Origin: Archaeoglobus neptunius | GTDB lineage: Archaea; Halobacteriota; Archaeoglobi; Archaeoglobales; Archaeoglobaceae | DNA length: 64,000 nt | Assembly (NCBI RefSeq): GCF_016757965.1 | Contig: NZ_JAEKIW010000006.1 | Span: forward strand, 1 to 64,000 | Direction of reading: 5' to 3' | Part shown: piece by piece, positions 530-39,035 of the stretch | Layout: each line of letters starts with the position of its first letter | Position numbering within the stretch: position 1 is the stretch's first letter | Notes under the pieces: generated by a model | Database searches by the model: none | What the model was told of the DNA's origin: nothing | The model's input: the letters and a program-made list of their open reading frames with translations, nothing else | Program-made: the position numbers and the translations under genes

Positions 530-3500
530 TTAAGAAATGCTTTTGATCTCTTCGTAGAGCTCATCCAGAGCTCGTACAAAATCAACCTCTCCCTTCTCAA
601 CCGCATCCATTCTGTTCTCAAGGTCTCTGGTTCTCTTTTCCGAAACAAACTGCGAGTACCTGTCCATGAGGTATGTGTAAACATCAACACCGAGTTTTGT
701 CGGAATGACTCTGCCATATCTGTCCTTCACATAATTACGGGCAAAGAGTCTGTCAACTATCGTGGCGTAGGTGGATGGTCGGCCTATTCCTCTCTCCTTC
801 ATCATCTGAATTATTTCCGCCTGAGTTAGGGGATGTGCTTTTGGGACCCTCCTAATTTCAGCCCTGACGACGAATTCTCCTGTGGGTAAATCCTTCCTGA
901 CCCAAACCGACCTGTAGAGATCGTACGCTCTACCTCTGGCCTCCACAATCCTTTCTTCCTGCACACTCCTTCCGTCAAACTCTATAACGTACTCCTTTAC
1001 CCTCACTGTGAAGGGCTTGGACTGTGAGGCCATAAATCTGCGAAAAATTAAGTCATACAGGGCGAAGTGCTCCCAACCAAGTCCTTCAGCAACTATAACA
1101 CCTTCGTGGATAAGTCTGCGAAGGCCATCCTTGTCGAGGGGTCTTGTTGGTCTTATACATTCGTGTGCCCCCCCTTCTCCCCATCCTCTACCCGAAAATT
1201 CTTTTCCGAGATACTCTCTTGCTATCATCTGTCCAGCATCGCTAACCCTTGTTGAATCCGTCCTGTGGTAGGTGATAAGACCGTTCTCAAATAAATCCTG
1301 GGCAACCTGCATCGTTTGCTTCACAGAAAGCTTTAATATCCTGTTTGAATCGCTCAGCAGGGTCTCAGTTGTGTACGGTGGTAGTGGAATCCTCAGCTCC
1401 TCCCTTTCGCCTTTCAGTTTGATTTTCAATTCAAACTCTTCCCTATCATGCTCAAGAACCAGATCAAGGTCTCTGACAATGGCAATAGTCTTCTTCTCCT
1501 TTGAATCCCTGTATCTCTCTATTATCCATCCGAGGACTGGAGTCTGCGCTCTTCCGGCAGACAGGTTGCGATTGTTAAACCTGTTCCACAGCTTCTGACT
1601 CAGCACAAAACCTATCCACCTGTCCTCAACCCTCCTCACAATCTGAGCCCTCACGAGATCTTCGTTGATTTCCCTGAGTGAATCAAAAGCTTCGAGAACA
1701 GCTTTTCTTGTCACCTCATGAAACTCTGCTCTTTTCACCTCTCCACACCCTGAGAGCAAATTTTTCAGATCCCATGCAATTTTCTCACCCTCGGTATCGG
1801 GATCCGTGCCTATTATGATGAACCCGGCATCATGGGCAAGCTTCCTGATGGCGTTGATCCTATCCTTTGAATCGTCAATATCATCGCTGCTGCACTTCGG
1901 ACAGCTTTTCCTCTCCTCGGTGAACTGGTATCCGCAATTCCGGCATCTTTTGATTGAGGCATAGATGGGTACGAATTTTCCATTCACAACCACTCCATGA
2001 AAACCCCTGTTCGTTATGAGGTCTGTGATGTGACCGATGCTCGCCGTGACCATGAGAACATACCTCTCCATTGGCACCTCATAAACAACCGCACCGTTCA
2101 GGATCTTAACACTCGGTCTGCCGAAAAAGCGGGAAATCTGTCTGGCCTTCGTGGGACTCTCCACAATGAAAAGAGCTGGTTTTACAAGATCAAACTCTTC
2201 TTTCCTCCTGTACCTCTCTCTGCTTTCGTCAACCTCTTTCACGAGAGCATCAAAATCGACTTCTTCAATTTTTTTGAATTCTATGTCATAGTACCTGGCC
2301 CTCTCAATGAAAGCTGACAGAAGCTCCGTGTCGTTTTCAAGAAGAAAGGACGCTCCCTTCGTCAGACCACCAGCAAAGAGTCTTGAGGTTCTACCGGAAC
2401 CCTGAATGTACGTTCTGATATCCGGAAACAGTATTTCATTTTTCCTCACCACCACATCTTTTGCGTCTGGCCTGTAGTTCTCCATTGCCTCTTTCACCAG
2501 TTCTCTCAGCTCCTCCCGGGATATTTTTTCTATATACGGCAGAATCCTCTCAATTTCGGGATGACTGCGGTAGATCATGGCCAGAATCCTGAGCATTGGA
2601 AGACTGAGAGAATCGAGGTCTCCAACTCTGACTTTAAAGGTGGGACAGCCCACAAAAACGGCATATCTTACTCTTTCAGGGAGATCCAGACCTCTAACCA
2701 ATTTTCCGTAATAATGAGCGGTACCTATCAGGTAATCGACCTCCCCTCTGGCAAATCTATCAAAATCATCAGATTTTTCGGCAACAACGATTCCAGTTTT
2801 GAACCTGTCTTTCAACCTCTCGTATATCGATCTGGCATCCTCTGCACTTCTCGCGTAGATTAATCCACCTGTCCCCATTTTTCCGAGAATATACTCTATC
2901 TCCTGTATGCTCTCCTCGTTCACGGCCACATCCTCAATATTTCTGACAGTCAATCTTGATGAACCAATATCAAAGTTAAGAAGGGTTCTGAAAAGTTCAG
3001 CCTTTTTTCCTTTTTTCGCAGTTGCAGTTGACACCATGAGAGATCCTTTTGCCTCACCTTTCCAGCTCCTTGTTTTTTCGTTATAATGGAAACCGAGAAG
3101 TGCCAGAATTCGGTCAATGTTCTTCGATGCCTTTAGAATTGCGTCCACATCATCAACGAAAATGAAATTGAAGGTTCCCAGACCGGCATAATGCTTTGAT
3201 AGAAACTGTGTTGTGGTGATAAGAATTTGGAATCTATCCAGGTTATCAAAAAAAGCCTCTTTTTCCTTCTTACCAAGCCTGGCGTGGTAATATCCGATAT
3301 TAATACCCTCACCAAACTCATTAACGGAAATTTCAAGCTGTGCTTTTTCCGCAAACCCGGAAATTGTTTCCAAAGCCTGATTCACAAGCAATGAAGTTGG
3401 AAAAATAAGATAACATCTCTTACCCTTCAAGGCCAGAAAGAGGGAGACAGCTATGCCGAACGATGTTTTGCCGATACCCGTGGGAGCTGTTGCAGCAAAA

Positions 3501-3718
3501 CTCTCACCTCTGAGAACTCTTTTCGCCCAGAGTTTCTGAATCGATCTCGGCTTTCCGACACATTTCTCGAAAAACGATACGAACCTTGCTACCTCATCAT
3601 CCTCCTCTCTCCTGCAAAGTTCCCCCTTCTTTGCAGTACATACAGCATGCTCGATTTCATCTGAGCTTAAATCACCGCCACAAACGGGGCAGAGATTTGC
3701 GTAAAGGACGTCGGGCAT
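530..3718 (-). CDS. rgy: reverse gyrase
   Basis: Fused helicase/topoisomerase IA that introduces positive supercoils into DNA; it is the hallmark protein of hyperthermophiles. From the preferred ATG at 3718 it has 1062 residues, a normal length without an intein. In order: an N-terminal zinc finger (Cys near 10, 13, 27, 35), Walker A APTGIGKT near 80, a DDVD helicase box near 190, the topoisomerase TOPRIM start FIVESPTKA near 517, a second zinc motif CRNCG/CPKC near 600, and the catalytic tyrosine in ITYHRTDSTR near 816. An upstream in-frame ATG at 3757 would add 13 residues but would sit in or beyond the AT-rich promoter, so I prefer 3718. The gene is divergent from the flavoprotein gene at 3766. 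Confidence 0.97.
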   Translation of the reverse strand: MPDVLYANLCPVCGGDLSSDEIEHAVCTAKKGELCRREEDDEVARFVSFFEKCVGKPRSIQKLWAKRVLRGESFAATAPTGIGKTSFGIAVSLFLALKGKRCYLIFPTSLLVNQALETISGFAEKAQLEISVNEFGEGINIGYYHARLGKKEKEAFFDNLDRFQILITTTQFLSKHYAGLGTFNFIFVDDVDAILKASKNIDRILALLGFHYNEKTRSWKGEAKGSLMVSTATAKKGKKAELFRTLLNFDIGSSRLTVRNIEDVAVNEESIQEIEYILGKMGTGGLIYARSAEDARSIYERLKDRFKTGIVVAEKSDDFDRFARGEVDYLIGTAHYYGKLVRGLDLPERVRYAVFVGCPTFKVRVGDLDSLSLPMLRILAMIYRSHPEIERILPYIEKISREELRELVKEAMENYRPDAKDVVVRKNEILFPDIRTYIQGSGRTSRLFAGGLTKGASFLLENDTELLSAFIERARYYDIEFKKIEEVDFDALVKEVDESRERYRRKEEFDLVKPALFIVESPTKARQISRFFGRPSVKILNGAVVYEVPMERYVLMVTASIGHITDLITNRGFHGVVVNGKFVPIYASIKRCRNCGYQFTEERKSCPKCSSDDIDDSKDRINAIRKLAHDAGFIIIGTDPDTEGEKIAWDLKNLLSGCGEVKRAEFHEVTRKAVLEAFDSLREINEDLVRAQIVRRVEDRWIGFVLSQKLWNRFNNRNLSAGRAQTPVLGWIIERYRDSKEKKTIAIVRDLDLVLEHDREEFELKIKLKGEREELRIPLPPYTTETLLSDSNRILKLSVKQTMQVAQDLFENGLITYHRTDSTRVSDAGQMIAREYLGKEFSGRGWGEGGAHECIRPTRPLDKDGLRRLIHEGVIVAEGLGWEHFALYDLIFRRFMASQSKPFTVRVKEYVIEFDGRSVQEERIVEARGRAYDLYRSVWVRKDLPTGEFVVRAEIRRVPKAHPLTQAEIIQMMKERGIGRPSTYATIVDRLFARNYVKDRYGRVIPTKLGVDVYTYLMDRYSQFVSEKRTRDLENRMDAVEKGEVDFVRALDELYEEIKSIS

Positions 3719-3732
3719 GTAATATGGTGACC

Positions 3733-3748
3733 TTAAAAATATATATTT
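3733..3748. promoter_or_regulatory. shared AT-rich core of divergent promoters
   Basis: The run TTAAAAATATATATTT lies 15-30 bases from the proposed reverse gyrase start (3718, minus) and 18-33 bases from the GTG start of the flavoprotein (3766, plus). Only 47 bases separate the two starts. Both TATA boxes must therefore sit in this run, and both mRNAs are probably leaderless or nearly so. Confidence 0.55.
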
Positions 3749-3765
3749 CGTCCCCAACTTCTGCT

Positions 3766-18756: not shown

Positions 18757-20997
18757 TCAGAACCCTTTATACGGGTTCGCACCAATTTCCATGATCTGCT
18801 TGACGAAATTGTCGATTATTTCTGGAACTTTGTCCCACTCGTTTATAGATATTTCCACGACCTGTACTCTTTCTTTCTCGAGCATCAACCTCTCCAGAGT
18901 CTCGGAGACGTTCTCCATTCTCCTGTTGGCAAGCTCACTCCCTCTGATAAAGTGGCACTGGTAGTCTTCCCCATACTTGCACCCGATAAGCAGAATTCCG
19001 TCAATTCCCTTCGAAAGGGCATCCGCTATGAACACGGTATTCACCGATCCGAGACATCTTACCGGTATCACTCTTGCCAGCGGACTGTACTTCACCCCGT
19101 TCAATGCGGCCATGTCAAGTGCCGGCAATGCGTCATTTTCACAGGCGAACACTACAAAGCGGAACTTGTCCTCTGCCCCCTCGTCCCAGTTGGGATCAGG
19201 CACATAGATCGACTTAACCGCCGATGCCATCTGATCAATGCTGTAAGTCTTGAAGCTGATGATCCTTTCCGGACAGGCACCAAAGCATATACCACACCTT
19301 CTGCATCTGAGCGGGTTTGGCATTGGGGTACCCTTTTCATCCTCATCAAGGGCACCAAATGGACATTCCTCGGTACACCTCTTACACTGCGTACAGCGCT
19401 GCAGGAAGAAGTTTGGAAAGTCTATATCACCTGTTCTTGGAAACGTCGTCTTACCCTCTGCAACCAGCTCTACGGCCTGAATGGCCTTCAAAGCCGCACC
19501 TTTGGCATCATCAATGCACGATGCTATTTCCATTGGCGCTCTTACGGCTCCAGCAGCGTAAATTCCAAGTCTTCTGCTCTCATACGGGAAGCAGATGTAA
19601 TTTGAGTCCGGAAATCCGTACTTGAGCGTCGGAAGTTCCGGGCCCTGCCTGTACTGCAGGTTCAGTATATGGCCGACCTGTTTCAGAACCTCGACATCCT
19701 CTTCGCTCTTTATCGAATGTGGTTCGGCAATGTGCTTGTAGGGCACAGTCTTTTCATCCGGGAACTCCTCCTTTACCGTGTACAGCCCCCTGAGAGTTGA
19801 TACCATCCCAGTTGCGAGAACGACCAGATCCGCTTTTATAGCCACATCCTCTCCAAGCAGGGTGTTCGTAACCTCGACAACGATCTTTCCTCCTTCCTCC
19901 CTGATATCCTTAATTTCACCCTTGGTCAGAAATATGCCATCATCCTGCTGCATTTCCTTGTAGAAGTCTTCCCAAAGCCCCGGAGTTCTCATATCCTTGT
20001 AAATTATGAACGCATTTCCATCTGAAAGTTCTCTGACGTATTTTGCCTGTTTCAAGCTCACAAGACAGCATACCGAAGAGCAGTATGGCAGGTGGTTTTC
20101 GTCCCTCTGTCCGGCACACTGAATGAACACCACATTCTTTGCTTCTCTTCCATCAGACTTTCTCAGGATCTTACCATTTTTTGCCATTTCCTCAAATTCC
20201 AGATTCGTCACCACATCGGCGTACTTACCGTAACCGAGCTCTTCAAGATTTGTTGCATCGTAGGGTTTCCAGCCGGTGGCAACAACAATACCACCCGCTC
20301 TGAACTCTACCTTGTTACCATCCTGATCAAGGATAACATCAAACATTCCCGGCTGACCGCTGATTGATTCGATCGTGGCCGAGGTGTAAACCTCGATGTT
20401 CTCGTTGCTTTTGACCTCATCAATTAGTCTGAAAACAACCGGCTCTTCTGTTTGAAGGAACGGTGGAGTTGTGGGGAGGGTTTTGTAGTATCTGGCAACC
20501 CATCCACCAAGTTCTGGCTCCTTCTCAACCAGATATGCTTTGTATCCTGCCTTTGCAATTTCGAGAGCGGCGGTTAATCCGGTAACCCCCCCTCCAACAA
20601 CAAGTATATCCTTGGAAACTTCCTCTATGTACGGTTCCGGTTTCTCCGCTTTCTGTGCTTTGGTTATCGCAATTCTGATATAATCTTCAGCAAGTTCCTG
20701 TGCATGCTCATCAATTTCATGGCTCCATACCACTCCCTCTCTCAGATTTGCCCTCTCCACATATTTGCCATCAAATGCAAAGACCCCGGTTTTTACACGT
20801 GGTGAACATGCAGCTATAACAACCGCATCCAGCTCTGAGAGATCAGTCTCAATCAATTCAACTCCTTCTTTTGAGCACAGATGAGGATGAACCTTTGCCT
20901 CAATGCCAAATTCCTCTTTTGCAACATTCTTCAGTCTATCGATATCGAGTTTATCAATATCACAACCCGTGCAGATATACACACCCACTTTCTCCAT
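18757..20997 (-). CDS. qmoB: QmoB, HdrA/MvhD-like flavoprotein subunit
   Basis: 746 residues. The N-terminal 120 residues form the HdrA-type cap with Cys 11, 41 and 64. An FAD domain begins at VVGGGVTGLTAA (133-144). Conserved heterodisulfide-reductase-type segments include QCAGQRDENHLPYCSSVCC near 304-322. Two ferredoxin clusters follow at about 535-580 (CTQCKRCTEECP and CRRCGICFGACP). The C-terminal ~130 residues are MvhD-like, with CLGSVN and CKYGEDYQCHF, and bind a 2Fe-2S cluster in relatives. This is the classical QmoB architecture. It lies 4 bases downstream of qmoA. Confidence 0.94.
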   Translation of the reverse strand: MEKVGVYICTGCDIDKLDIDRLKNVAKEEFGIEAKVHPHLCSKEGVELIETDLSELDAVVIAACSPRVKTGVFAFDGKYVERANLREGVVWSHEIDEHAQELAEDYIRIAITKAQKAEKPEPYIEEVSKDILVVGGGVTGLTAALEIAKAGYKAYLVEKEPELGGWVARYYKTLPTTPPFLQTEEPVVFRLIDEVKSNENIEVYTSATIESISGQPGMFDVILDQDGNKVEFRAGGIVVATGWKPYDATNLEELGYGKYADVVTNLEFEEMAKNGKILRKSDGREAKNVVFIQCAGQRDENHLPYCSSVCCLVSLKQAKYVRELSDGNAFIIYKDMRTPGLWEDFYKEMQQDDGIFLTKGEIKDIREEGGKIVVEVTNTLLGEDVAIKADLVVLATGMVSTLRGLYTVKEEFPDEKTVPYKHIAEPHSIKSEEDVEVLKQVGHILNLQYRQGPELPTLKYGFPDSNYICFPYESRRLGIYAAGAVRAPMEIASCIDDAKGAALKAIQAVELVAEGKTTFPRTGDIDFPNFFLQRCTQCKRCTEECPFGALDEDEKGTPMPNPLRCRRCGICFGACPERIISFKTYSIDQMASAVKSIYVPDPNWDEGAEDKFRFVVFACENDALPALDMAALNGVKYSPLARVIPVRCLGSVNTVFIADALSKGIDGILLIGCKYGEDYQCHFIRGSELANRRMENVSETLERLMLEKERVQVVEISINEWDKVPEIIDNFVKQIMEIGANPYKGF

Positions 20998-21001
20998 TAT
21001 T

Positions 21002-22216
21002 TCACCTCCTAGCGAGCTGTATTGCCTTCAGAGCCGCTGCCGTTGCGCTTTCATTTGCTGAGGCAACCTCCATGGGCATCGCCGCTACCCCTGCAGGGAA
21101 TATCCCCGGTTTTGGTTTAACAAATCCATATTCGTCAAGATCTATTCCGGGAATTGGATCTATCGCAGGCTGCATTCCGGTGGCAAGTACAACCATGTCC
21201 ACTTCTCTCTTGGTCTTTACTCCGGTAAGGGTATCTTCTGCTGTAACCACAAGCCTGCCATCTGCCTCCTCAACCTTCGCCACCTTCCCCTTGATCAACT
21301 CAATGTTCTCGTCGGCCTTGACTTTGGTAAAGAAGTCCTCATACCTGCCAAAGGCCCTGATGTCTATGTAGAAGATGTATATCTTTGCATCGGGATACTG
21401 CTCTCTGACGTACGTTGCCTGCTTCAAACTTGCGAGACAGCAAATTGCTGAGCAGTATGGCAGGTGGTTTTCATCCCTGCTTCCGGCACACTGAACAAAG
21501 GCTATTGTTTCAATGGGCCTGCCATCCATAGTCTGTATTTTTCCACCTGTTGGACCGTTGAGTGATGCGAGTCTTTCCATTTCCATGTTGGTGATGACGT
21601 TTTTGAATTTTCCATAACCCAGATTGTCGAGTTTGGTTGCATCGTAGGGCTTCCAGCCGGTGGCTACTACGATTGACGAAACATTAAGATCTATGATCTT
21701 CTCCTCTTCATTGAGATCAATGGCATTGTATTTGCAGGCAGAAACGCACTCCCCACACTTGTCGCAGTACCTGTCATCAATGTAATACTTAAAGGGCATT
21801 GCCATAATCGTCGGAATATCGATGGCTTTTTTCGTTTTCAGGCCAAAGTTGTAGTCGTCAGGCACCTCAACAGGACACACATCCCTGCATGCACCACATG
21901 CCGTGCAGTTATCGTTCACGTATCTCGGTTTCAGCCTGACCTTTACAAAGAAGTTCCCCTCCTCGCCAGATATTTCCAGTACCTCTGCACTGGTGAAGTA
22001 CTTCAGTTTCGGTGTGCTCTTCATCCTTTTGAACAGAATTTCCAGCCCGCAGAAAGGTGGACAGAGCTTTGGAAAGTACTTGTTTAGCTGAGAAACTCTG
22101 CCTCCAAGATACGGGTTCTTTTCCACAAGAATTACATCATAGCCGGTTTCAGCAGCTTCAATAGCAGCAGTTAAACCAGCAATTCCGCCTCCTATAACAA
22201 GTATCTCGCCAGCCAT
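21002..22216 (-). CDS. qmoA: QmoA, HdrA-like flavoprotein subunit
   Basis: 404 residues from the ATG at 22216. HdrA-like FAD protein of the Qmo complex, which links the quinone pool to APS reductase in dissimilatory sulfate reduction. Seen: FAD motif IGGGIAGLTAA at 8-18, CPPFCG at 52-57, and two 4Fe-4S motifs (Cys 104, 107, 110, 114 and Cys 151, 154, 157, 161). A GTG three codons upstream would fall within the Shine-Dalgarno AGGTG, so the ATG is chosen. First gene of qmoABC. Internal segments are shared with QmoB, reflecting their paralogy. Confidence 0.94.
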   Translation of the reverse strand: MAGEILVIGGGIAGLTAAIEAAETGYDVILVEKNPYLGGRVSQLNKYFPKLCPPFCGLEILFKRMKSTPKLKYFTSAEVLEISGEEGNFFVKVRLKPRYVNDNCTACGACRDVCPVEVPDDYNFGLKTKKAIDIPTIMAMPFKYYIDDRYCDKCGECVSACKYNAIDLNEEEKIIDLNVSSIVVATGWKPYDATKLDNLGYGKFKNVITNMEMERLASLNGPTGGKIQTMDGRPIETIAFVQCAGSRDENHLPYCSAICCLASLKQATYVREQYPDAKIYIFYIDIRAFGRYEDFFTKVKADENIELIKGKVAKVEEADGRLVVTAEDTLTGVKTKREVDMVVLATGMQPAIDPIPGIDLDEYGFVKPKPGIFPAGVAAMPMEVASANESATAAALKAIQLARR

Positions 22217-22222
22217 AGCTAA

Positions 22223-22227
22223 CACCT
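22223..22227 (-). promoter_or_regulatory. Shine-Dalgarno site of qmoA
   Basis: AGGTG on the minus strand lies 6 bases before the ATG at 22216. It shows that qmoA has a led transcript and decides between this ATG and the in-frame GTG at 22225. Confidence 0.6.
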
Positions 22228-34679: not shown

Positions 34680-36632
34680 ATGAAGGTTCTGGTTGTTGGA
34701 GCAGGTACGATGGGGCATGGAATCGCTGAAGTCTGTGCCCTTTCTGGATTTGAAGTGATTCTGTGTGATATCAATGAGGATGTTCTGAAGAACGCAATGA
34801 ACAGGATAGTGTGGAGCGTTAGGAAGCTCGAGTCAAAAGGAAAGATAAAAAAGTCAGACGAAATAATAAAAAAGATAAAAACAACCACAGACCTGGCAAA
34901 TGCTGCGAAGGAGGCTGATTTCGTAATTGAGGCTGTTGTGGAAAAAACAGAGGTAAAGCATGAGATATTCAAGATCCTCGATGAAAACTGCCGAGAGAAT
35001 GTGATACTATCAACAAACACCTCAACAATCCCGATAACCGACATTGCAAGCGTAACAGGGAGAAAGGACAGGGTTGTTGGACTGCACTTTTTCAATCCTC
35101 CAACGCTTATAAAGCTTGTCGAGATCATTAAAGGTGAAGAAACGTGTGACGAGACGGTCAAAAAAACAATAGAGTTCGCAAGGTCTATCGGAATGGATTA
35201 CGTACTGGTTGAAAAAGATGTTCCGGGATTTTTGATAAACAGAATAAACATAAGGGTGTTCGTTGAAGCCATAAGACTTCTTGAGGAAGGTTTCAAGCCA
35301 GAACAGATTGATGCCTCGGTTAAATACAGAGCGGGGCTTCCAATGGGTCTTTTTGAAGTTGTAGATTTCAGCGGTGTTGACACCGTTTACAACGTTCTTC
35401 AGGAGGTTAGAAAGAGAGGTTTTGAAGTTGTAGTTCCGGAAATGCTTGAGAATATGGTCAGAGAGGGCAGACTCGGAATGAAAACTGGAAAAGGATTTTA
35501 TGAATATTCCGGGTTCTACGCCAGGGCAAAAATTTCAAAAGACCTTGCTTACACCATAAATCCGATACAGATTCTCGCACCCGGTATAAACGAGGCAGCA
35601 TGGTTGATAAGAAACGGGATCGCAACCAGAGAGGATATAGACAAGGCTACGGTTAAGGGAATGGGGTACCCAAAAGGCATTCTTGACTTTGCTGACAGCT
35701 ACGGACTGGACAGAGTTGTGGTAGTTCTTGAAACGAGGAAGGGGAAAACAGGACTAAAGGAATACATCCCGGACCCGCTGCTTACTGAAATGAAGGAAAA
35801 GAAAAAGCTCGGAAAGAAAACAGGAGAGGGTTTCTATAAGTGGAACTACGAACTGCTGGACTTCGGACCTGTCAGATACGAAAAAAGGCATAACTATGCG
35901 ATGATCACCATGCGTCGACCTGAGAAACTTAATGCACTAAATGAGGAAATGTGGAAAGGGCTGACCGAAGCTTTCAGGAGGGCAAAAGAGGATAAGGACG
36001 TGAGAGCTGTTGTTATAACCGGAGAAGGAAGGGCATTTTGTGCTGGAGACGACATAGCTGTAATGGGATCGTGGAAAAGCTTCAGAGATGGGGTTGAGTT
36101 TTTCGACAACGTTGCCATGCCGTTAGTTGATGAGCTGGCAAATTACGACAAACCCATAATAGCTCTGGTAAATGGCAATGCTTTTGGAGGAGGAATGGAG
36201 CTGAATATGTTCTTCGACATAGTAATAGCGAGTGAAGACGCCAGTTTTTCAATCCCTGAAGGTCTTATCGGTGCCATCCCTCCACTCGCCTCATCTTTCG
36301 GCTACGCTCTCTTCGGAAGAAAAATAGCGAAGTATGCACTGACCGGAGACCCTATGGACCCCATGGAGGCCAGAGAACTTGGTCTTGTTGACGTCATTGT
36401 TCCCAAACAGTGTCTGGAAGACGCAGGAATAGAGTACGTAGACAAGGTGTGCAGAGTCGCACCTCTCGCAGCCAGGGCGATAAAGAAGTCCATGAACGCA
36501 GTCAGACAGCTTTACAGGAATCCACTTGAGATCGCAGGAAGGGAAATAGAGCTTTTGATACCAACTGAAGATTTCTCTGAAGGAATGAAAGCATTTGTAC
36601 AGAAAAGGAGGCCTGAGTGGAAAGGAAAATAG
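34680..36632 (+). CDS. 3-hydroxyacyl-CoA dehydrogenase / enoyl-CoA hydratase fusion
   Basis: 650 residues. Bifunctional enzyme: a crotonase-type hydratase converts enoyl-CoA to (S)-3-hydroxyacyl-CoA and an NAD-linked dehydrogenase oxidises this to 3-oxoacyl-CoA. The dehydrogenase comes first, with NAD motif GAGTMG at 7-12, HFFNPPTLIKLVEII near 138-152 with the catalytic His, and a second helical domain from about 185 to 380. The crotonase domain starts near 395: FCAGDD near 448 (oxyanion hole), GGGMELN near 500 and IPEGLIGAIPP near 525. The two catalytic glutamates, in GGGME and PEG, are both kept. The archaeal HCDH-ECH order is opposite to bacterial FadB. Confidence 0.93.
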   Translation: MKVLVVGAGTMGHGIAEVCALSGFEVILCDINEDVLKNAMNRIVWSVRKLESKGKIKKSDEIIKKIKTTTDLANAAKEADFVIEAVVEKTEVKHEIFKILDENCRENVILSTNTSTIPITDIASVTGRKDRVVGLHFFNPPTLIKLVEIIKGEETCDETVKKTIEFARSIGMDYVLVEKDVPGFLINRINIRVFVEAIRLLEEGFKPEQIDASVKYRAGLPMGLFEVVDFSGVDTVYNVLQEVRKRGFEVVVPEMLENMVREGRLGMKTGKGFYEYSGFYARAKISKDLAYTINPIQILAPGINEAAWLIRNGIATREDIDKATVKGMGYPKGILDFADSYGLDRVVVVLETRKGKTGLKEYIPDPLLTEMKEKKKLGKKTGEGFYKWNYELLDFGPVRYEKRHNYAMITMRRPEKLNALNEEMWKGLTEAFRRAKEDKDVRAVVITGEGRAFCAGDDIAVMGSWKSFRDGVEFFDNVAMPLVDELANYDKPIIALVNGNAFGGGMELNMFFDIVIASEDASFSIPEGLIGAIPPLASSFGYALFGRKIAKYALTGDPMDPMEARELGLVDVIVPKQCLEDAGIEYVDKVCRVAPLAARAIKKSMNAVRQLYRNPLEIAGREIELLIPTEDFSEGMKAFVQKRRPEWKGK

Positions 36633-36790: not shown

Positions 36791-36800
36791 TTTTATATGC
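36791..36800 (+). promoter_or_regulatory. TATA-like element of PHA synthase operon
   Basis: TTTTATATGC lies 33-42 bases before the ATG at 36833. It is within the 200-base gap after the HCDH/ECH gene, so the PHA operon has its own promoter. Confidence 0.5.
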
Positions 36801-36832: not shown

Positions 36833-37147
36833 ATGGAGTACTCGGACATTGTTGAGACCATGAGGGGGCTATACAAAATGGGCTTTGCAAGTGGGAAAAC
36901 AACCCTGGACCTGATGAAGGTCGGAATGGACAGCTACGTGAACATGTACGGCATACATCTCAGCCATTTTCTGCCTTCTGAGAGCTTTGAGAGTGTGAAA
37001 AAGACGATGGATATCTACCTTGACTCGCAGGCGAAAGTTTTGGATAACTTCAAGAAACTTCTGGAACAGATCGAAAAGCAGCAGGACGAGATATTCAACA
37101 GGCTGACTGAAATAAGCAAGACCCCGGAGAAGAAAAAATCCAGTTAA
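36833..37147 (+). CDS. small helical protein of the PHA operon (putative phasin-like)
   Basis: 104 residues, all predicted helical, with no signal peptide or cysteine. The second half (FESVKKTMDIYLDSQAKVLD, then LLEQIEKQQDEIFNRLTE) has heptad-like spacing, as in a coiled coil, and the tail is lysine/serine-rich. It is not similar enough to name. It starts the operon that ends with PhaE and PhaC, 25 bases before the PhaE-like gene. Small amphipathic helical proteins at this position in PHA operons are often granule-coating phasins, so that is the working idea, by context only. Confidence 0.55.
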   Translation: MEYSDIVETMRGLYKMGFASGKTTLDLMKVGMDSYVNMYGIHLSHFLPSESFESVKKTMDIYLDSQAKVLDNFKKLLEQIEKQQDEIFNRLTEISKTPEKKKSS

Positions 37148-37160
37148 TTTTTAATTTTTT

Positions 37161-37166
37161 GGAGGT
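37161..37166 (+). promoter_or_regulatory. Shine-Dalgarno site of PhaE-like gene
   Basis: GGAGGT lies 6 bases before the ATG at 37173, a strong site that fixes this start. Confidence 0.7.
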
Positions 37167-37172
37167 CTGATC

Positions 37173-38054
37173 ATGATTCAAGACCACGATTATTTCATGA
37201 ACCCCTTGCCCAAAGAGTCCCTGGAGCTGATCAAGAGAAACATGAAAATAAGAGATGTTTTAAAAAAGATCTATGCAGATTACAGATCCAATCTGAAGCC
37301 CAATCCCAAAGATTTTGAGACAATTTTCAACGAGATATTCAGGTACTTCTTCCGACCGCTTGAAACTGCAATTTTGGGGACAATGCAGATGATACTTCTG
37401 CTGCCAACAAGGAAAAACATGAGGCTGTTTGAAATATACGGTGATACCCTCCATGCATACGAGGAGCTTTTAAAATCGATAAAAGACCATCTGGAACTGA
37501 CAATGAAAGCTTACGAAGTGTTTTTTGCGGAACCAATCAAAAATGTGAAAGACTTCATGGTGGATAACGAGCTGGAACTGCACGAGTTTGAAATATACAG
37601 ACTTGTTGCTGATTATCCATACACCATAACTAACAGGGCAATCATGCATATCTCAAAATCCTTCGATTCGTGGGAGAGATTCTCCGAAGCCTATTTTCTG
37701 TTCAAGGGCCTGATGAAGGAGACGTACATGAGAGCCGTGAGTGATTTCATTACTGCCATGAAAGATGGGGTGTTTGAAAATTATTCAGATTTTGCAAATG
37801 AATTCTACAGCATTGCTGCGTCACATTTCGACCTGCTGCTGAAATCTGATGAATACCTGGAGGTCCAGAGAGAGATGAACTCAAGTTTAATGGATCACAT
37901 TTTCCACTTCAGAAGATTTGCCGAAGAAGTCTTGGAAAACAATCCCGCAAGTCCTTTTGCCACACTGAACCAGATCGACGAAGCTTACAGAAGGATATCC
38001 GATCTGAGAAGGAAGATTCTCGAACTTGAGAGAAGGCTTGAAACCGGACCCTGA
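37173..38054 (+). CDS. phaE: PhaE-like subunit of class III PHA synthase
   Basis: 293 helical residues, matching the PhaE family in length, helical content and position directly before phaC. PhaE is the non-catalytic partner that activates class III PHA synthase. A C-terminal heptad-like helix (YRRISDLRRKILELERRLE, about 270-288) is typical of PhaE proteins, which end in a coiled coil. The middle (NPKDFETIFNEIFRYFFRPLE near 48-68; WERFSEAYFLFKGLMKETY near 164-182) is weakly related to known PhaE. There are no catalytic motifs. Assignment rests partly on context. Confidence 0.75.
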   Translation: MIQDHDYFMNPLPKESLELIKRNMKIRDVLKKIYADYRSNLKPNPKDFETIFNEIFRYFFRPLETAILGTMQMILLLPTRKNMRLFEIYGDTLHAYEELLKSIKDHLELTMKAYEVFFAEPIKNVKDFMVDNELELHEFEIYRLVADYPYTITNRAIMHISKSFDSWERFSEAYFLFKGLMKETYMRAVSDFITAMKDGVFENYSDFANEFYSIAASHFDLLLKSDEYLEVQREMNSSLMDHIFHFRRFAEEVLENNPASPFATLNQIDEAYRRISDLRRKILELERRLETGP

Positions 38055-38059
38055 GGTGA
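38053..38059 (+). promoter_or_regulatory. Shine-Dalgarno site of phaC (TTG start)
   Basis: GAGGTGA lies 4 bases before the TTG at 38064 and overlaps the phaE stop. It supports the TTG as the phaC start and suggests translational coupling. Confidence 0.6.
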
Positions 38060-38063
38060 AAAT

Positions 38064-39035
38064 TTGCTCCAGCTTCCCGAAATCAAACCGGGAACGTGCG
38101 AATATGAACTTGAAATAGAAGACTGGCTGTTCAAACTTGCCCATTTTAAATCAAAACCTCGATACAGGGTGCCGATCCTTATTTGCTACGCCTTCATAAA
38201 CCGCCCCTACATTCTTGACCTCAACAGGGAGGTCAGTGTAATAAGCAGAATGCTCGACGCTGGTCTCGATGTATGGCTGATAGACTGGGGATATCCCTCA
38301 AGGGCAGACAGGTTTTTGGAGCTTTCTGACTATCTGGATTTCATCGAAACCTGTATCGAACACATTACCGGAAAAAAAGGGGTCGAGAGTATAACCCTTC
38401 ATGGATACTGCCTCGGTTCGACGTTGGCCGTCATATACTCCTCCATATTCCCTGAAAAAATAAAAAATCTCGTCCTTCAGGCACCTGCAGTTGACTTCTA
38501 CACCACAAACACCCTGGCCCAATGGGCCAGAACAATTGAACCCGAAAAGATAGCCAGAGCTCTGGGAAACGCCACAGGAGATTTGCTGAATCTGTCATTC
38601 TTACTTGTTGATCCAATAAGACTGGTGGTCGGAAAATACCAGTCTCTTTTAGACAATTCCGAGAACACCGATTTCTTGAGAACGTTTCTTTATATGGACT
38701 GCTGGATCTTCGATTCACCGGCAGTTCCCGGCAACGTCTACGTGGAATACATAACCCGATGGTACCACAGAAACGAGGTGATTGAGGGGTTGTTCGAATA
38801 CAGAAACAGAAAGGTTGATATCAACAATCTGACCATGCCCACGTTGATCATCGCAGGGCAGAAGGATCACATAACACCCCCCGAATCGGCAAGCTCCTTT
38901 TTTGAAAGAATACCATCAAAGGACAAGAAACTGATTCTATCGGACAGGGGTCACATCGGACTGACGGTAAGCAAAAGCTCTCACAGAAAGATCTGGCCAG
39001 AAGTTATAAGATGGATTGTGGAAAGATCCCGCTAG
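38064..39035 (+). CDS. phaC: class III poly(3-hydroxyalkanoate) synthase PhaC
   Basis: 323 residues, TTG start. Alpha/beta-hydrolase enzyme that polymerises (R)-3-hydroxyacyl-CoA. The lipase-like box is GYCLGS at 114-119 with Cys 116 as nucleophile; Asp 269 lies in AGQKDHITPP and His 298 in DRGHIG. The spacings Cys-Asp 153 and Asp-His 29 equal those of the Allochromatium vinosum class III enzyme (Cys149, Asp302, His331). Also seen: VWLIDWGYPS at 70-79, matching the family's D-W-G-x-P block. The N-terminus is about 33 residues shorter than in A. vinosum. No dedicated (R)-specific reductase or hydratase gene is in the window. Confidence 0.88.
   Translation: MLQLPEIKPGTCEYELEIEDWLFKLAHFKSKPRYRVPILICYAFINRPYILDLNREVSVISRMLDAGLDVWLIDWGYPSRADRFLELSDYLDFIETCIEHITGKKGVESITLHGYCLGSTLAVIYSSIFPEKIKNLVLQAPAVDFYTTNTLAQWARTIEPEKIARALGNATGDLLNLSFLLVDPIRLVVGKYQSLLDNSENTDFLRTFLYMDCWIFDSPAVPGNVYVEYITRWYHRNEVIEGLFEYRNRKVDINNLTMPTLIIAGQKDHITPPESASSFFERIPSKDKKLILSDRGHIGLTVSKSSHRKIWPEVIRWIVERSR

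Follow-up and report, generated by a model that had tools for sequence, protein, structure and literature searches.

A predicted class III-type polyhydroxyalkanoate synthase operon with a candidate phasin in the hyperthermophilic archaeon Archaeoglobus neptunius

Studies of polyhydroxyalkanoate (PHA) in archaea have dealt mainly with haloarchaea, and there are some records from Thaumarchaeota. The functional cluster of Haloferax mediterranei is arranged as HFX_5217(phaJ1)-phaR-phaP-phaE-phaC (PMC4823750), and its products include the main phasin PhaP, the repressor PhaR, and PhaJ1, a granule-bound R-hydratase that acts mainly in mobilisation (PMC4823750, PMC10948481). The locus described here encodes a PhaE-like and a PhaC-like protein together with a small protein, P1, in a member of the Archaeoglobi.

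A. neptunius is a deep-sea archaeon. The preliminary description of the DNA had taken the host to be a hyperthermophilic sulfate reducer, in agreement with the growth of the type strain at 50–85 °C (optimum 80 °C) and its reduction of sulfate with pyruvate (PMC8322695). The reverse gyrase that it reported was located at 533–3757 (−) of the window, i.e., the whole 64,000-nt stretch that was analysed, and two HdrA-like proteins at 18760–22225 (−) fit its assignment of Qmo. In strain SE56T, P1, phaE, and phaC are collinear and tightly packed on the plus strand at 36833–39035, with intergenic gaps of 25 and 9 nt, and a Shine-Dalgarno-like motif precedes each of the three ORFs, which bears out the operon and the translation signals claimed for it (Table 1). 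The TATA-like element is found approximately 160 nt past the 3′ end of the upstream fusion gene, and its position and this distance suggest that the operon is probably driven by its own promoter. Translational coupling from phaE to phaC is likely, judging from the Shine-Dalgarno motif that overlaps the phaE stop codon. The two genes share one reading frame (37173–39035), in which a single TGA followed by three codons is all that lies between phaE and the TTG start of phaC. Read-through of this TGA would fuse PhaE to PhaC; phaE and phaC of the nearest relative overlap instead.

Table 1. Positions of the features of the operon and of related genes in other Archaeoglobi (L, locus; G, genome; C, contig; plain numbers refer to the window).
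Feature	Position	Strand	Basis or remark
3-Hydroxyacyl-CoA dehydrogenase/enoyl-CoA hydratase fusion (beta-oxidation)	34680..36632	+	genus-conserved 5′ neighbour of operon
TATA-like element TTTTATATG	36791..36799	+	read from sequence; 34–42 nt 5′ of P1 start
Shine-Dalgarno-like GGTGAT of P1	36822..36827	+	sequence
P1, 104 aa, two-helix hairpin, candidate phasin (PhaP position)	36833..37147	+	model, co-occurrence, gene position
Shine-Dalgarno GGAGGT of phaE	37161..37166	+	sequence
PhaE-like synthase subunit, 293 aa	37173..38054	+	PF09712, profile of relatives
Shine-Dalgarno GAGGTGA of phaC	38053..38059	+	sequence; overlaps phaE stop
PhaC-like class III PHA synthase catalytic subunit, 323 aa, TTG start	38064..39035	+	TIGR01836, tree, model
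Cys116 codon (nucleophile), lipase-box motif G-Y-C-L-G-S	38409..38411	+	alignment
Asp268 codon (catalytic Asp)	38865..38867	+	alignment
His297 codon (catalytic His)	38952..38954	+	alignment
phaC relic, last 73 codons, A. fulgidus	L051:7378-7599 = G001:C1:1002377-1002598		
phaC relic, last ~44 codons, congener G004	L052:1921-2055		followed by phaJ
Second, haloarchaeal-like PhaC paralogue	L054:7387-8499, L057:7741-8904, L061:9736-10836, L068:7357-8493, L069:6383-7525		
AbrB-domain proteins with N-terminal extension, 5′ of P1	L054:5682-5963, L057:6056-6331, L058:5927-6199, L061:12281-12553		

The best family for PhaC is TIGR01836 (class III PhaC), with a score of 309 bits (E 3.7e-92) that is below the curated cut-off of 365.3 bits, as are the scores of all 16 Archaeoglobi members. 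In the alignment of these 16 sequences, in which the relatives show 51–75% identity, Cys116, Asp268, and His297 are invariant. The triad had been given as Cys116-Asp269-His298 with spacings of 153 and 29 residues; Cys116 and the spacing of 29 hold, whereas the Asp and His numbers were one too high (residues 269 and 298 are His and Ile) and the first spacing is 152. The 152/29 spacing is common to all aligned Archaeoglobaceae, and the identity with the A. vinosum enzyme that had been claimed was not found, as the aligned bacterial class III enzymes mostly show 153/29, with Plasticicumulans PhaC standing for this class in data sets from which the A. vinosum enzyme is absent. The nucleophile motif is G-Y-C-L-G-S instead of the canonical G-x-C-x-G-G; among the Archaeoglobaceae examined, only the basal g5 lineage keeps the last Gly (GYCLGG), the others having Ser, Thr, or Ala in its place, and the box is likewise an intact GYCLGG in the sister clades. 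Haloferax PhaC2, which carries Ala at the last lipase-box Gly and a short or truncated C-terminus, is inactive (PMC2939530). The changed box, together with the sub-cut-off TIGR01836 scores, is the main doubt about the predicted activity of A. neptunius PhaC as a synthase.

In the maximum-likelihood tree, whose root is weak, as long branches come together in the outgroup, the Archaeoglobi PhaC proteins form a supported clade (100/100) nested within the class III group, to which PhaC of Plasticicumulans also belongs, and this clade is sister to a second archaeal family (f9) plus Chloroflexi (100/98) and apart from haloarchaeal PhaC. A. neptunius PhaC is placed with PHA synthases and not with other acyltransferases, consistent with its assignment in the preliminary description. 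Subject to the weak rooting, this placement with f9 and Chloroflexi does not support the idea that the main PhaC was recently acquired from haloarchaea. The closest solved folds to the AlphaFold2 model of PhaC (pLDDT 79, pTM 0.85) are the PHA synthases of Aeromonas, Chromobacterium, and Cupriavidus (Z 31–33), followed by lipases as the next fold class (Z 25). The dN/dS ratio was 0.05 for PhaC and 0.07 for PhaE in one unsaturated pair, the synonymous sites of the A. neptunius pair being saturated and the latter thus unusable.

PF09712 matches only the C-terminal half of A. neptunius PhaE (E 1.1e-4, below cut-off) and is recognised in several relatives with values of up to E 8e-12; the conserved C-terminus reads NPFATxxQxDEAYrRI-DLrRKixELErR. 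A profile of the relatives matches the gene that directly precedes phaC in haloarchaea, among them the annotated PhaE of Haloferax (E 1.5e-7), and likewise in Chloroflexi, Desulfobacterales, Plasticicumulans, and further families of archaea. From the domain in the relatives and this profile match, a PhaE homologue adjoins phaC, as in class III PHA synthases. Comparison of PhaE with the PDB gave nothing beyond chance coiled-coil matches.

P1 was predicted by AlphaFold2 to consist of two long helices with a short turn between them (pLDDT 89). It has no phasin match in Pfam and belongs to no known family, and a Foldseek search with the model gave no match under E 0.5. A relationship to haloarchaeal PhaP found no support from sequence, with no similarity detected (hhalign probability 0.5), and neither did kinship with PhaE. 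The helical hairpin, the co-inheritance with the synthase, and the position between phaR and phaE in relatives are the traits that fit a predicted phasin. Since PhaP occupies the same place in the H. mediterranei cluster, P1 is probably a phasin that coats the polymer.

Of 59 Archaeoglobi species genomes, 16 encode full-length PhaC, and exactly these also encode P1 and PhaE (naive Fisher p ~1.5e-13, not corrected for relatedness); Ferroglobus placidus and Geoglobus ahangari are among them, and a 17th genome (G006) carries a phaC with a broken frame near a contig end. The preliminary description had regarded the set as unusual for a hyperthermophile; the class III-type pair is indeed there, but it is not peculiar to A. 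neptunius. Conservation of the three proteins in 16 genomes excludes chance, and in five genomes (G011, G045, G051, G053, and G054) P1 is on a different contig from phaEC, so that linkage alone does not explain the co-occurrence. Furthermore, presence and absence vary within five genera, which indicates that joint gain or loss of P1, phaE, and phaC probably took place on several occasions. A. fulgidus VC-16 has lost P1 and phaE, and its phaC relic lies directly 3′ of the dehydrogenase/hydratase fusion gene and is followed by phaJ. Archaeoglobi-like phaC genes (58–63% identity) were also seen on short contigs of two Desulfobacterales MAGs (L081 and L083) and a Hadesarchaea MAG (L076), representing transfer or mis-binning.

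A second PhaC paralogue of 366–387 aa with an intact GYCMGGG box occurs in F. placidus and several uncultured relatives and was not found in the A. neptunius genome; in the tree, it groups with haloarchaeal PhaC (99/88). Just 5′ of this second phaC, three genomes have a gene of 169–179 aa, the size of haloarchaeal PhaE, which may encode a short PhaE on the basis of weak similarity. P1 and the second phaC have a small methyltransferase-like gene between them in three genomes (L054:6276-6845, L057:6639-7211, and L061:11378-11938), and the methyltransferase domain was confirmed in that of L054.

Based on these data, we consider the P1-PhaE-PhaC operon to be a thermophilic PHA granule system (probability roughly 0.77), for which the monomer is probably supplied from beta-oxidation via a PhaJ encoded on contig C8; polymerisation, the phasin role of P1, and the carbon route are what we infer. 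In the proposed mechanism, PhaC would be joined by a helper subunit, PhaE, in a class III-type synthase. His297 and Asp268 would activate Cys116, which could hold the growing chain and polymerise (R)-3-hydroxyacyl-CoA, and the two-helix P1 would coat the resulting polymer. The PhaJ-type MaoC protein of contig C8 may hydrate enoyl-CoA derived from butyrate or long-chain fatty acids, yielding the R form. This protein may also run backwards, as PhaJ1 does in H. mediterranei, returning stored carbon to beta-oxidation on starvation. The strain description of A. neptunius makes no mention of inclusions or granules (PMC8322695).

A MaoC/PhaJ gene adjoins the cluster in many Archaeoglobi genomes, even next to the phaC stumps of A. 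fulgidus and the second congener. In A. neptunius, the orthologue is located on contig C8 beside acyl-CoA ligases, away from the operon, and encodes a MaoC-domain protein (PF01575, E 1.2e-28) that is 40% identical to the MaoC of the haloarchaeal cluster. It carries the full R-hydratase motif FGLVSGDLNPVHFDDGVA. The type strain grows on butyrate and stearate (PMC8322695). The same granule system could instead obtain its monomer via acetoacetyl-CoA reductase (the PhaA-PhaB route), an alternative that concerns the carbon route only and to which the 13 acetyl-CoA C-acetyltransferase genes of the genome description lend some weight (PMC8322695). However, no PhaB-type short-chain dehydrogenase resembling acetoacetyl-CoA reductase was detected in the A. 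neptunius genome at E 1e-15, nor in most PHA-bearing genomes of genus g13, and a pha-type MaoC is present; the PhaA-PhaB route is therefore unlikely, and supply from beta-oxidation through PhaJ is the probable one. Among depolymerases, the patatin type was searched for, and no candidate was found in the A. neptunius genome.

In Archaeoglobi outside the genus Archaeoglobus, a small AbrB-domain protein is encoded directly 5′ of P1, and it shares 37% identity over 86 aa with the AbrB protein preceding phaP in Haloferax. These proteins are the probable archaeal PhaR outside haloarchaea. No phaR was found in the A. neptunius genome or elsewhere in its genus. The module had been called complete, which applies to the P1-PhaE-PhaC core but not to the whole set, as phaR is missing from the genome and phaJ is on another contig. 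An enzyme with a Ser/Thr/Ala box, no PhaR, and an unlinked PhaJ could have drifted from bulk storage, producing only short oligo-hydroxyalkanoates or esterifying another acceptor by the same thioester chemistry. The near-universal box change in Archaeoglobaceae, the loss of phaR in Archaeoglobus, and the phaC stumps of A. fulgidus and its congener, which show that the trait is dispensable, are in favour of such drift. In contrast, the replacements in the box are all small residues, the triad and the operon partners are under purifying selection, and P1 is retained wherever the synthase is retained, which fits granules; drift of this kind is thus improbable, slightly more so than the PhaA-PhaB route. 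It is very improbable that PhaC has been mistaken for a synthase and is in fact an ordinary thioesterase or lipase of the alpha/beta hydrolase superfamily, for although its fold is the common one of that superfamily and its score is under the TIGR01836 cut-off, every relative has Cys and not Ser as the nucleophile, the protein sits within the class III clade, PHA synthases are clearly its best structural matches, and it is constantly paired with PhaE and P1 and frequently accompanied by PhaR and PhaJ.

In the searchable open literature, no paper was found that describes PHA or its genes in Archaeoglobi; broader searches gave incidental matches only, and neither is mentioned in the papers on the A. 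neptunius and G. ahangari genomes. Archaeal class III PhaC was counted from three hydrothermal-vent samples in a genome-mining study whose main text does not name Archaeoglobi (PMC8312272), and some Archaeoglobi phaC genes may be catalogued without comment in its supplementary lists. As read from the genomes, what appears to be new is that hyperthermophilic archaea carry genes for class III-like PHA synthesis, together with an altered lipase box and a novel candidate phasin. We favour, with some reserve, the proposal that PHA granules are formed in Archaeoglobi at 80 °C, with a nucleophile elbow of the synthase that deviates from GxCxGG, a phasin of a new family, and a haloarchaea-like gene order. 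If true, it would mean that a hyperthermophile natively stores polyester and would offer a source of heat-stable synthase, and it would extend the trait to strictly anaerobic hyperthermophiles of vents and the hot subsurface, giving a new view of how they grow on fatty acids and survive from one substrate pulse to the next. A synthase working at 80 °C with a natural lipase-box change would test which part of the motif is needed for catalysis, and a natural comparison, for example between A. neptunius and A. fulgidus, is offered by a single family in which the cluster is complete, lost, or a relic. Carbon storage as a bioplastic at very high temperature is now directly testable.

Among the closest known systems are the PHA synthases of other Halobacteriota (f5, f9, and f23) and Chloroflexi, of which f9 and Chloroflexi, the sister clade, show 45–49% identity and have PhaE 5′ of PhaC; however, GYCLGG is retained in these synthases, and P1 was not found beside them. 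Bacterial class III PhaCE (A. vinosum type, with Plasticicumulans PhaC compared) shares the two subunits of about equal size, the adjacency of phaE and phaC, the Cys-Asp-His triad with His 29 residues past Asp, and the WIFDSP and DWGYP motifs, whereas the Archaeoglobi system differs in its Cys-Asp spacing (152 versus 153), the GYCLGS box, and the additional phasin-like P1 of no known family. Compared with H. mediterranei, Archaeoglobi PhaC is short (323 aa) and is devoid of the C-terminal extension of approximately 150 aa, PhaE is long (approximately 290 versus 182 aa), P1 is unrelated to PhaP in sequence, the lipase box departs from the canonical form, and the closest PhaC clade is another than the haloarchaeal one. 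The two clusters nevertheless have homologous PhaJ, AbrB-type PhaR, PhaE (weakly similar), and PhaC in common, with the candidate phasin P1 in the place of PhaP. Several relatives of A. neptunius retain the haloarchaeal gene order; phaJ-phaR-P1-phaE-phaC in G. ahangari is the order of the H. mediterranei cluster, and this shared order is the strongest argument for P1 as a phasin and for an operon serving PHA granules.
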